46,309 nucleotides of DNA from Egibacteraceae bacterium (lineage in GTDB: Bacteria > Actinomycetota > Nitriliruptoria > Euzebyales > Egibacteraceae): assembly GCA_040905805.1 (NCBI GenBank), contig JBBDQS010000002.1:14108-60416 (forward strand). Direction: 5' to 3'. The notes beneath the pieces are model-generated. The model searched no databases and had not been told where the DNA came from. It saw only the letters and a list, made by a program, of their open reading frames with translations. Made by a program: the position numbers and the translations under genes. Within the stretch, counting starts at the first letter, position 1. Each line of letters starts with the position of its first letter. Shown piece by piece: positions 37,886 to 41,037 of the stretch.

Positions 37886-38497
37886 CTACGCCAGGATGCG
37901 CTTGCCCACGGGCTTGCCCGCGGTCATCTCGTAGACCAGCGGCACGCCCGTGGCGATCTCCAGGCTGGTGACCGCCTCGTCATCCAGGTCGTCGAGCTCC
38001 TTCACGATGGCCCGCAGGGAGTTGCCGTGGGCGCTGACCAGGACGACGTCGTGCGCCATGGTCGCGGGGACGATCTCGGTGTCGAAGTACGGCAACGTCC
38101 GGGTGGTCGTGTCCTTGAGGCTCTCGCCCCCCGGCAGGTCCACGTCGTAGCCCCGCCGCCAGGTGTGGACCTGCGCCTCGCCGAACTCCCGGCGGGCCTC
38201 GTCCTTGTTGCGTCCGGTCAGGGCGCCGTAGAAGCGCTCGTTCAGCTGCCACGCCTGGATCTGCGGAAGCTCGTCCTGGCCCAGTGCCTGCAACACGATG
38301 CGCCCGGTGTCGATGGCGCGGACCAGCGTCGAGGTGTAGGCCACGTCGACGCGCAGTCCCTCGGCGGCCAGCCGCGCGCCCGCCCCCTGCGCCTCTTGCC
38401 GGCCGGTGTCGGACAGCGGGCAGTCGACCCAGCCGGTGAAGCGGTTCTCGGCGTTCCAGGTGGACTGACCGTGGCGAATCAGGATGAGTTGGGCCAT
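37886..38497 (-). CDS. gpmA: 2,3-bisphosphoglycerate-dependent phosphoglycerate mutase
   Basis: The glycolytic enzyme interconverts 3- and 2-phosphoglycerate. The 203-aa product has the phosphohistidine motif LIRHGQSTWNAENRFTGW (His about 9), the ERFYGALTG segment (acid Glu) and the late HGNSLRAIV with the second catalytic His. It is shorter than the 245-250 aa of most GpmA proteins, mainly by lacking parts of the C-terminal region. TAGGGT (38,511-38,506, minus strand) ends 8 nt before the ATG, suggesting a leaderless message. It is divergent from the desaturase gene. Confidence 0.92.
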   Translation of the reverse strand: MAQLILIRHGQSTWNAENRFTGWVDCPLSDTGRQEAQGAGARLAAEGLRVDVAYTSTLVRAIDTGRIVLQALGQDELPQIQAWQLNERFYGALTGRNKDEARREFGEAQVHTWRRGYDVDLPGGESLKDTTTRTLPYFDTEIVPATMAHDVVLVSAHGNSLRAIVKELDDLDDEAVTSLEIATGVPLVYEMTAGKPVGKRILA

Positions 38498-38524
38498 GAA
38501 CGGGAACCCTACCCATGTAGGCGG

Positions 38525-38567
38525 TTGCGCGCGAACCTACGGACGCGTAGGTTACGGTTGCGTAACC
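38525..38567 (+). promoter_or_regulatory. Desaturase promoter with two overlapping palindromes
   Basis: TTGCGC (38,525-38,530), a 17-nt spacer and TAGGTT (38,548-38,553) form a promoter. A perfect palindrome AACCTACG-N4-CGTAGGTT (38,534-38,553) covers the spacer and the -10 box. A second, GGTTACG-N4-CGTAACC (38,550-38,567), overlaps it by four bases. Both share TACG-N4-CGTA, the form expected of TetR-type operators. A shorter CCTAC-N4-GTAGG (38,508-38,521) lies over the gpmA -10 region. Confidence 0.6.
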
Positions 38568-38600
38568 ACTTCTTCCGCCCCACGCCAGGAGGCGCCCCAC

Positions 38601-39548
38601 ATGCCAACGCGAACCACCGACCGGGACCTGCTCGTCGAGCTGGAGCCCAAAGCGGCCGAGCTGCTCAACCGCCACGAGAAGGTGGCGAAGGAGTGGTTCC
38701 CCCACGAGTACGTCCCATGGAGCCTGGGTCGGGACTTCCCCGCCTTCTTCGAGGGCGGCGACGACTGGACCCCCGATCAGCCTCGGCTGACCGGCGTGGC
38801 CCAGACCGCGTTCGAGGTGAACCTTCTGACCGAGGACAACCTGCCGAGCTACCACCGTGAGATCCACGAGATGTTCGGTGCTGGCGACGGTGCGTGGATC
38901 AACTGGGCGAACCGCTGGACGGCCGAGGAGAACCGGCACGGCATCGTCCTGCGCGACTACTTGGTCGTCACCCGCAACATCGACCCCGTCGAGCTCGAGC
39001 GCCAGCGTATGAAGACGATGGAGGCCGGCTACGACCGCGAGGACAAGGACGCGCTGCGCGGCATGGCCTACGTGGCCTTCCAGGAGCTCGCGACCCGGAT
39101 CAGCCACCGCAACACCGGGATGTACTCCCAGGACCCCGTCGCCGACCGGATCATGTCGCGCATCTCCGCCGACGAGAACCTGCACATGATCTTCTACCGC
39201 GACATGCTCCACGCTGCCCTGCGGATCGACCCCTCGCGCACGGTCGAGGCCGTCACGGCCGAGGTCCTGGACTTCGCGATGCCCGGTGCGGTGATCGAGG
39301 GCTTCCAGCGCAAGGCCGTGCAGATCGCCAACGCCGGGATCTACGACCTGCGCATCCACCACGACGAGATCCTGTGGCCGCTGCTGCGCCACTGGGGCAT
39401 CTTCGGCCTCGAGGGTCTCGACGAGGGTGGCGAGAAGGCCCGCCAGGAGCTGGCTGCGCACCTCGAGAGCCTGGACAAGTCGGCCACCCGCTTCGAGGAG
39501 AAGCGCGCCGCCCGCGCCGCCAGGGCCGCCGAGAAGGCGTCTGCCTGA
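38601..39548 (+). CDS. Acyl-ACP desaturase, ferritin-like diiron type
   Basis: The enzyme introduces a double bond into acyl-ACP with O2 and electrons from a ferredoxin system. The 315-aa product has the two diiron motifs of the family, EENRHG (about residue 113) and DENLHM (about 195), and the helical core WANRWTAEENRHGIVLRDYL. WFPHEYVPWSLGRDF at the start is typical of the actinobacterial DesA1/DesA2-like group. The C-terminus (last 25 residues) is charged and helical. AGGAGG at 38,587-38,592 precedes the ATG at 38,601 and separates it from two in-frame upstream codons. Probably regulated through the palindromes in its promoter. Confidence 0.92.
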   Translation: MPTRTTDRDLLVELEPKAAELLNRHEKVAKEWFPHEYVPWSLGRDFPAFFEGGDDWTPDQPRLTGVAQTAFEVNLLTEDNLPSYHREIHEMFGAGDGAWINWANRWTAEENRHGIVLRDYLVVTRNIDPVELERQRMKTMEAGYDREDKDALRGMAYVAFQELATRISHRNTGMYSQDPVADRIMSRISADENLHMIFYRDMLHAALRIDPSRTVEAVTAEVLDFAMPGAVIEGFQRKAVQIANAGIYDLRIHHDEILWPLLRHWGIFGLEGLDEGGEKARQELAAHLESLDKSATRFEEKRAARAARAAEKASA

Positions 39549-39588: not shown

Positions 39589-40248
39589 ATGCCGCCGCCG
39601 GCGCCCCCGTTTCCCCCCGACGCTGTCGTGTTCGACCTCGACGGGCTGCTGGTCGACTCCGAGGATGCCTGGGCGCGCGCCAGCCGCCGGGTGGTGGAGG
39701 ACCTCGGTGGGTGCTGGCAGGACGCGGTGCACCGTCGGCTGCTCGGCTCGGGGCCGGCTGAGGCCGCCCGCATCGTCGCCGGCTACCTCGGCGGCGGCCA
39801 CGACCCGGAGGCGGTCGCCGCCCGGATGCTGGCGGCGGCCGAGGCCGAGTTCGCCAACGGGCTGGTCGCCCGTCCGGGTGCCCTGGCCCTGGTCAGGGCC
39901 CTGCACGGGCGCCTGCCGCTGGGGGTGGCGACGAACTCCGTGCGGGTGCTGGCCGAGCGGGCGCTGGAATCGGTGGCGCTCTCGAGCTGGTTCGAGACGC
40001 TGGTGTGCGCCGACGACGTCGCGGCGCCCAAGCCGGCCCCCGACCCCTATCTGCTCGCGTGCGCCAACTGCGACGCCAGGCCTGGGCGGTCGGTGGCGCT
40101 GGAGGACTCCCCGGCGGGCTCGCACGCCGCCCAGCGCGCCGGCCTGTGGGTGATCGGTTGCCCCTCCCTGCCGGGGGTGGTCCTGCCGGCAGCGGATGTG
40201 GTGGTTGCGAGCCTCGCCGACGTCGACGCGGCCGTGCTGGCTCCGTAA
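39589..40248 (+). CDS. HAD-family phosphatase, beta-phosphoglucomutase-like
   Basis: The 219-aa product is a haloacid dehalogenase superfamily enzyme. Motif I is VFDLDGLLVDSE (nucleophile Asp and DxD, residues 13-24), motif II VATNS (about 106), and motif III/IV are KPAPDPYLLA (Lys about 146) and ALEDSPAGSHAAQRAGL. The alpha-helical cap after motif I marks the beta-phosphoglucomutase or YcjU-type class. It probably dephosphorylates a small sugar phosphate or similar metabolite; substrate unknown. Copy C of the repeat lies directly after the stop. Confidence 0.88.
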   Translation: MPPPAPPFPPDAVVFDLDGLLVDSEDAWARASRRVVEDLGGCWQDAVHRRLLGSGPAEAARIVAGYLGGGHDPEAVAARMLAAAEAEFANGLVARPGALALVRALHGRLPLGVATNSVRVLAERALESVALSSWFETLVCADDVAAPKPAPDPYLLACANCDARPGRSVALEDSPAGSHAAQRAGLWVIGCPSLPGVVLPAADVVVASLADVDAAVLAP

Positions 40249-40252
40249 CTCC

Positions 40253-40330
40253 ATGGCGGTCGCTGCGCGACCGCCCCACCCGGCACAGCTGAGAATCGGC
40301 CTCGCAAGCTCGGCCGATTCACGAATCAGC
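40253..40330 (+). repeat. Structured intergenic repeat, copy C
   Basis: About 78 bp in the gap between the stops of the HAD gene and the convergent TetR gene. It has the same first stem (arms GGCGGTCGC/GCGACCGCC) as copies A and B. Its second stem is perfect: GAATCGGCC/GGCCGATTC around the conserved loop TCGCAAGCTC. One pair is G-C where copy A has C-G, a compensatory change. Its end includes the TGA of the TetR gene. Confidence 0.8.
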
Positions 40331-40937
40331 CGGGGCGGGTGGCGGGGTCGCGCGGCAGTCGGGACAGCCCGACGTAGGCCAGCGCGGAGATGTGCGAGGC
40401 CACGGTCTCCTTGTCGGGCTCGCGCACCTCGCTCCACCATGCGCCCACGTGCACGACCATGCCGATCAGGGCACGGGCGTAGAGCGGCACGGTCGCCGGA
40501 TCCAGACCCGACGCGACGAAGAAGCCCGCGAGCACGTCCTCGGCCTTCGACGCCACGTCGGACAGCAGTCCGGCCAACCCACCCCCGGCGAATCCCGACG
40601 GCGAGTCGCGGGTCAGCACCCGGAAGCCGTCGGGGTCGGCCTCGATGTAGTCGAGGAAGGCCGCCGCGCTGGCCTGGACCTGGTCGCGGGGACCGATGTC
40701 GGGGCCGAGCCGGGCGGTGATCATCTCCAGCAGCCGGCGGGTCTCGCGGTCGACGACGACCGCGTACAGGCCCTCCTTGCCGCCGAAGTGCTCGTAGACG
40801 ATCGGCTTGGAGACCTTCGCCCGCGCGGCGATCTCCTCGATCGAGGCGCCGAGGTAGCCGTGCTCGGCGAACACCTGCTTGGCGACGCCGACGAGCTGGT
40901 TGCGGCGCTGGCTCGCGGTCATGCGCCCCTCGCTCAT
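40326..40937 (-). CDS. TetR-family transcriptional regulator
   Basis: The 203-aa product has a TetR helix-turn-helix: RRNQLVGVAKQVFAEHGYLG and ASIEEIAARAKVSKPIVYEHFGGKEGLY. The C-terminal ligand domain (FLDYIEADPDGFRVLTRD, SGLDPATVPLYARALIGMVV) recalls the FasR-type lipid regulators of mycobacteria. It sits about 0.8 kb downstream of the desaturase gene, whose promoter has TetR-like palindromes, so it could be that regulator, but this is inference. TACGTT (minus strand, about 40,949-40,944) is close to the start, and a GCACCGGTGC palindrome (40,950-40,959) may be its own operator. Confidence 0.85.
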   Translation of the reverse strand: MSEGRMTASQRRNQLVGVAKQVFAEHGYLGASIEEIAARAKVSKPIVYEHFGGKEGLYAVVVDRETRRLLEMITARLGPDIGPRDQVQASAAAFLDYIEADPDGFRVLTRDSPSGFAGGGLAGLLSDVASKAEDVLAGFFVASGLDPATVPLYARALIGMVVHVGAWWSEVREPDKETVASHISALAYVGLSRLPRDPATRPG

Positions 40938-41037
40938 CGGTGCAACGTAGCACCGGTGCGTGTCCGACCCCGACCACGGCCATCATGCCCACACAACCCG
41001 CCCCTGTGTGGCGGTGCGAGCGGGGGTCCGTGGACGG

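Follow-up and report, generated by a model that had tools for sequence, protein, structure and literature searches.

A pair of overlapping palindromes in a 46,309-nucleotide stretch of an Egibacteraceae genome (the window) is, as judged from comparative sequence analysis, a real and well-conserved operator that covers the promoter of a fatty acid desaturase gene and is widespread in Actinomycetota. By the same kind of evidence, the best candidate regulator of this double operator is a TetR-family protein encoded nearby (positions 40326 to 40937, minus strand). We consider it very probable that this protein represses the desaturase gene from the double operator and is released by a ligand, most likely long-chain saturated acyl-CoA, upon which desaturase would be made.

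Palindrome 1 (AACCTACG-GACG-CGTAGGTT, positions 38534 to 38553) is a perfect 8-4-8 inverted repeat and palindrome 2 (GGTTACG-GTTG-CGTAACC, positions 38550 to 38567) is a perfect 7-4-7 repeat; each is the predicted site of one TetR dimer. The earlier note had described two perfect TACG-N4-CGTA palindromes with a four-base overlap, and the sequence reads exactly so, with GGTT at 38550 to 38553 common to both. The centers of the two palindromes, like their TACG-N4-CGTA cores, are exactly 15 bp apart. Together, the cores make up a 27-bp operator core (TACG-N4-CGTA-GGT-TACG-N4-CGTA, positions 38538 to 38564, plus strand) whose fixed bases are themselves palindromic, and the flanks of palindrome 1 agree with the AACC...GGTT consensus of 184 operators. 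The promoter that had been placed under the palindromes was also found: a probable −35 element, TTGCGC (38525 to 38530, plus strand), matching TTGACA at 3 of 6 positions, is separated by a 17-bp spacer from a probable −10 element, TAGGTT (38548 to 38553, plus strand), at the center of the operator. The palindrome pair thus covers the spacer and −10 element of a plausible desaturase promoter, and the T-A-n-n-n-T of the latter is built into the operator's CGTA-RSY-TACG. A universal −35 element at these operators was rejected, as only 8 of the 22 operators of the host order have one with at least four matches at a spacer of 16 to 18 bp.

The proposed controlled gene (38601 to 39548, plus strand) encodes a soluble acyl-ACP desaturase of the FA_desaturase_2 family (PF03405, E = 8e-71; 238.9 bits against a Pfam cutoff of 22.7) and is the only PF03405 gene in the source genome. 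AGGAGG (38587 to 38592) lies upstream of its start, the translation contains the diiron E/DExxH motifs EENRH and DENLH, and the best solved relative is Mycobacterium tuberculosis DesA2 (1za0). Between this gene and the TetR gene lies a HAD-family hydrolase gene (39589 to 40248, plus strand; PF13419) that is probably a bystander.

Palindromicity alone is weak evidence for an operator, because perfect 7-4-7 palindromes are common in the window (72% GC), with 17 start positions against a mean of 9.8 in 60 first-order Markov simulations, and because 4 of the 60 simulations contained two of them within 20 bp. It is nevertheless exceedingly improbable that GC-rich sequence produced the palindromes by chance, since the exact 27-mer TACGN4CGTAN3TACGN4CGTA was found in 23 of 30 genomes of the host order, while the reversed 27-mer, our control pattern, was found in none, and since the 27-mer recurs throughout the phylum in front of lipid and membrane genes. 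Its i.i.d. expectation is ~0.00014 per genome. At up to three mismatches, it matched the window once, at the site itself (mean of 100 shuffles, 0.03), and the exact 27-mer is single copy in the whole source genome. The single core TACG-N4-CGTA occurs 6 times in the 3.6-Mb genome versus 15 times for the reversed pattern, and 2 of the 6 copies are the pair at 38534 to 38567.

We looked for the same palindrome before the desaturase genes of relatives, and the conservation on which the earlier note had staked its proposal was observed. The desaturase is encoded by 22 gene copies in 21 of the 30 genomes of the host order, and 21 of these copies have the core pair upstream, always with the 15-bp spacing. 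Across the phylum, the 27-mer is present in 70 of 396 genomes; the public genome collection holds at least 119 stretches with the operator, and among the matches listed from it, all 80 record titles are actinobacterial by name. From 185 assigned rows, one of which was left out, the 184 oriented operators give the consensus AACC-TACG-N4-CGTA-RSY-TACG-N4-CGTA-GGTT, in which 2 of the 184 have T in place of S. Arrays contain two units in 142 cases and three units in 49 (n = 191).

Each of these 191 operators was classified by a tblastn search of its flanks (900 bp either way) with cluster members. This partly circular assignment, in which gene families rest on a Pfam scan of one representative per cluster, placed 75 before a PF00487 membrane desaturase gene, 64 before a PF03405 soluble desaturase gene (11 of them with a divergent phosphoglycerate mutase gene), 24 before a ferredoxin-reductase-like gene (desaturase reductase), 8 before HlyIII (L042, L044, L049, L073, L099, L105, L124, and L132), 7 before an NMO-type flavoprotein, 6 before an E1 dehydrogenase (L041, L057, L060, L074, L101, and L153), and 1 before a TetR gene, with 6 lacking an assigned gene. 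Both the HlyIII and the E1 representative exceeded an NCBIfam cutoff, the former as a TrhA-type PAQR membrane homeostasis protein and the latter as pyruvate dehydrogenase E1 alpha. For the NMO representative, the only NCBIfam match was a weak one to FabK; weak local matches were obtained to structures titled 2-nitropropane dioxygenase, one of which we take to be Helicobacter pylori FabX. PF03060 was assigned to the NMO cluster by a scan of one member, L170. Three genomes (G002, G017, and G018) carry the exact 27-mer and no desaturase, and in these the operator precedes an NMO-family gene. The NMO-type proteins are candidate enzymes of oxygen-independent unsaturation.

When up to two mismatches are allowed, near operators are not significant alone, as the reversed control then matches 20 times, in 15 of 30 genomes; we kept four on account of their position upstream of hlyIII/trhA genes (L272, L275, and L276) or an NMO gene (L273). 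NMO-family (PF03060) proteins of ~490 amino acids stand under the operator at L161, L170, L171, L172, and L273, and three of these five listed loci are in genomes without PF03405. A dehydrogenase E1 alpha gene is found under the operator in Cellulomonas, Promicromonospora, and others, where it possibly serves the supply of fatty acid primers. Exact operators also precede alpha/beta-hydrolase genes of uncharacterized substrate at L125 and L168 (the second operator of G010). According to the accessible part of PMC9017321, E. coli FabR, the regulator of fabA and fabB, also controls trhA, a link that parallels the hlyIII operators found here. Treating HlyIII as a fluidity gene is counted against because the title of the same paper states that bacterial PAQRs do not affect fluidity.

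The gene divergent from the desaturase gene encodes a 2,3-bisphosphoglycerate-dependent phosphoglycerate mutase (PGM; 37886 to 38497, minus strand; above the TIGR01258 cutoff). The earlier note had counted a third palindrome, CCTAC-CCAT-GTAGG (38508 to 38521), as part of the switch and had proposed that the switch joins membrane lipid fluidity to glycolysis. The arrangement lends itself to this idea, as the two genes are divergent, with 40 bp from the PGM start to the operator core, and an intergenic operator could touch both promoters. However, perfect 5-4-5 palindromes number 124 in the window, the third palindrome among them, and it occurs in only 1 of the 11 genomes with the desaturase-PGM gene pair, the source genome itself, and we rejected it as an operator or part of one; its particular letters gave no match in 100 shuffles. 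The gap between PGM and the operator ranges from 30 to 147 bp across 11 loci. All 11 classified operators with a divergent PGM gene are within the host order, and no PGM neighbor was found at classified operators outside it, where the neighbors are other genes and the lipid or membrane target persists. The glycolysis link was rejected on these grounds: coregulation of the desaturase and PGM genes by one TetR operator is unlikely, and PGM is probably a bystander.

For the operator as a switch of the desaturase gene, the TetR gene at 40326, which the earlier note had put forward as a candidate, has become the best candidate through its distribution. Orthologs are encoded in 25 of the 30 genomes of the host order; they are present in all 23 operator-bearing genomes and absent from 5 of the 7 others (Fisher P = 1.5e-4). 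G016 and G025 have the ortholog and lack the exact operator; G016 has a near operator before HlyIII (2 mismatches) and G025 has one before NMO (1 mismatch). The desaturase and TetR genes lie on one contig within ~6 kb of each other in 19 of the 20 genomes having both, the exception being G023. The one desaturase copy without the operator is that of G007, and the TetR ortholog is also absent from that genome. At this G007 locus (L277, 1564 to 2248), an unrelated TetR gene is oriented divergently to the desaturase gene, and the palindrome CTACCTACGGGTAGGTAG lies in the interval; here the regulator may have been replaced.

In a phylum sample of 396 genomes, the operator and the ortholog were both present in 69, the operator alone in 1, the ortholog alone in 25, and neither in 301 (P = 1e-54, uncorrected for kinship); the TetR matches fell into two groups, with E values of <1e-50 and >1e-36, and the first was taken as orthologs. 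The single operator-only genome, G090, has the ortholog in two pieces, one of them ~1 kb from the operator. A degenerate operator pair was present in 17 of the 25 ortholog-only genomes, in 10 of these within ~1.1 kb of the ortholog, and no degenerate pair was found in the other 8. Among named operator-bearing genomes, 21 of 22 have the ortholog, at 47 to 55% identity. In G042 (Thermoleophilaceae), no ortholog match was found at an E value of 1e-20, and a weaker TetR homolog follows the operator at a distance of 29 bp. Because kinship among genomes inflates P values, independent weight comes from linkage and joint losses. Of 36 named loci with a membrane desaturase, 32 have the TetR gene on the same strand downstream of the operator and the desaturase gene, 1.0 to 1.3 kb from the operator; at the other 95 named operators, including 39 named PF03405 loci, the TetR gene was absent from the fetched stretch.

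The protein scores 54.2 bits against TetR_N (PF00440; cutoff, 24), and its mycobacterial orthologs are 52 to 54% identical to it (E, ~1e-61). In a tree whose bootstrap is not fully settled and in which the placement of L065 is unsure, the orthologs, with L065, form one group apart from 11 FasR-like paralogs (support, 100/100). The DNA-recognition region V42-S43-K44-P45, together with Y48, H50, F51, and G52, is invariant in 36 orthologs. The AlphaFold model (mean pLDDT, 84.8) is closest to FasR (Z score of 21.4; 2.1 Å over 180 residues; 29% identity), followed by an uncharacterized TetR protein, FadR, EthR, and DesT (Z score for DesT, 17.3). With FasR as its nearest fold and FadR and DesT also among the matches, the model suggests long-chain acyl-CoA as a likely ligand, although similarity of fold does not establish what is bound. 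E. coli FabR and Pseudomonas aeruginosa DesT are TetR repressors of unsaturated fatty acid synthesis; we take their TetR lineages and operators to differ from those of the window system.

We infer that two TetR dimers, products of the gene at 40326 to 40937, would bind side by side, 15 bp apart, on positions 38534 to 38567, as the earlier note had suggested. The fixed 15-bp repeat and the arrays of two or three units are consistent with such binding, and the accessible text of PMC7382501 describes FasR dimers adjacent on one DNA in the crystal. Since the operator covers the −10 element, dimers bound over it and the spacer should exclude RNA polymerase and so repress by occlusion. The ligand, most likely long-chain saturated acyl-CoA, would fill the TetR pocket, the dimers would leave, acyl-ACP desaturase would be made, and membrane unsaturation would rise. 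Saturated chains would probably be inducers because the corresponding mycobacterial motif is tied to palmitate-induced genes in the available part of PMC3388012.

FasR itself raises the question of whether a FasR-like paralog, possibly as an activator, binds the operator instead. It is the best sequence and fold match to the window TetR, has a TAC-N6-GTA-type site, and senses long acyl-CoA. At the fas promoter, FasR recognizes inverted repeats, and mycobacterial fas carries the same motif class as the operator, according to the text available from PMC3388012. Related TetRs could share sites because this paralog binds a related one, the crystal oligonucleotide containing TACCCGTACGTA. A TAC-N6-GTA pair ~60 bp upstream of a FasR-like paralog in G076 (33% identity; G076:C141:979-1005) also hints at a related site. 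FasR, an activator of fas, is ~30% identical to the window TetR, and FasR-like paralogs form a separate clade. The window protein scores 99.7 bits against the NCBIfam FasR equivalog, below the cutoff of 330. Against binding by such a paralog, a site over the −10 element suits repression, the ortholog is the only match at an E value of 1e-20 or better in 9 of the 23 operator-bearing genomes of the host order and in three Bifidobacterium genomes, and the TetR gene linked to the desaturase gene is the ortholog, not a FasR-like paralog. We therefore regard binding by a FasR-like paralog as very unlikely and retain the TetR protein encoded at 40326 as the probable repressor.

Several described systems resemble the one proposed here. 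The mycobacterial TAC-N6-GTA motif was predicted in 2012 without a named regulator and goes with palmitate-induced genes, and the accessible part of that study (PMC3388012) places three sites each before Rv3229c and fas and two before Rv3230c. These numbers for Rv3229c and Rv3230c match the pattern found here, where 30 of 34 DesA3-type loci have three operator units and 22 of 24 reductase loci have two. An entry in the reference list of PMC9861118 reports that Rv1019 negatively regulates the oleate desaturase operon Rv3230c-Rv3229c (oxidoreductase and DesA3). The mycobacterial orthologs of the window TetR adjoin glmU, and in Mycobacterium aurum (L221), a gene with an Mfd/UvrB-interaction domain lies downstream. 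We take Rv1019 to lie between glmU and mfd in H37Rv. By the synteny of these orthologs beside glmU and an Mfd-like gene, the window TetR belongs to the Rv1019 type, and a tandem TAC-N6-GTA operator at a fatty acid desaturase gene, a mark of that type, is found in the window. The two systems differ in that the reported target of Rv1019 is a membrane acyl-CoA desaturase with its reductase, while the proposed target in the window is a soluble acyl-ACP desaturase. Rv1019 is also reported, in the available part of PMC9579286, to control mfd-mazG, which does not adjoin the TetR gene in the window.

In Streptomyces coelicolor, the TetR protein SCO3129 reportedly regulates its own gene as well as SCO3128 and SCO3130 (accessible text of PMC8303971), and SCO3128 is a putative fatty acid desaturase (likewise in part, PMC6585502), the same kind of target as in the Streptomyces loci found here. 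By gene order and annotation, SCO3129 is probably the counterpart of the TetR orthologs described above. The window TetR gene, by contrast, is not part of the desaturase operon, and the 160 bp preceding it contain no such operator. No TAC-N6-GTA site was found upstream of TetR orthologs in any of 46 regions of 160 bp (25 of them of the host order), the window gene included, and autoregulation via this operator was rejected. Outside that set, operator-type sites lie upstream of TetR genes at L065 and in G414. At the 32 linked membrane-desaturase loci, transcription from the operator runs toward the TetR gene; the TetR gene of Streptomyces-type loci, being downstream of the controlled desaturase gene, may therefore be under feedback. 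The window TetR gene appears leaderless (40937 to 40955), with a TACGTT −10-like box ~7 bases before the ATG; the box sits within an inverted repeat, CGGTGC-N6-GCACCG, that a close relative, L183, did not show. Short-leader promoters akin to this one precede many orthologs.

MadR (Rv0472c), a TetR repressor of desA1 and desA2 whose release is triggered by saturated acyl-CoA (accessible part of PMC8872791), is a functional parallel of the proposed switch as a desaturase repressor. The MadR consensus given there is TCTGTGxxxxxxxGT; neither TCTGTG nor CACAGA was found in 38500 to 38600, and MadR was rejected as the regulator.

Regulator-target pairs of this kind are already in print for two genera. 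In the open literature, to which the main papers on Rv1019 and SCO3129 do not belong, we found no description of the operator in front of soluble acyl-ACP desaturase, NMO, HlyIII, or E1 genes, nor of its spread through the phylum. A broader reading, which we hold to be evenly poised, is that one TetR-operator pair, ancestral or nearly so in Actinomycetota, is a general membrane-fluidity switch whose enzymes have been swapped: soluble desaturase, membrane desaturase with reductase, NMO, E1 alpha, and HlyIII/TrhA. The NMO-type flavoprotein would then possibly provide an oxygen-independent, FabX-like route to unsaturated acyl chains, the E1 alpha subunit would possibly serve branched-chain primers, and control of HlyIII/TrhA would be convergent with the FabR-trhA link of E. 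coli. The proposed TetR-operator system would join the unassigned mycobacterial motif, Rv1019, and SCO3129, each reported separately, as one system for membrane unsaturation across Actinomycetota. It also points to desaturase control as the more ancient and more widespread function of the Rv1019 type. The operator would also serve as a sequence handle for unsaturation and fluidity genes, such as those for NMO-type proteins and HlyIII/TrhA, in lineages without known desaturases.
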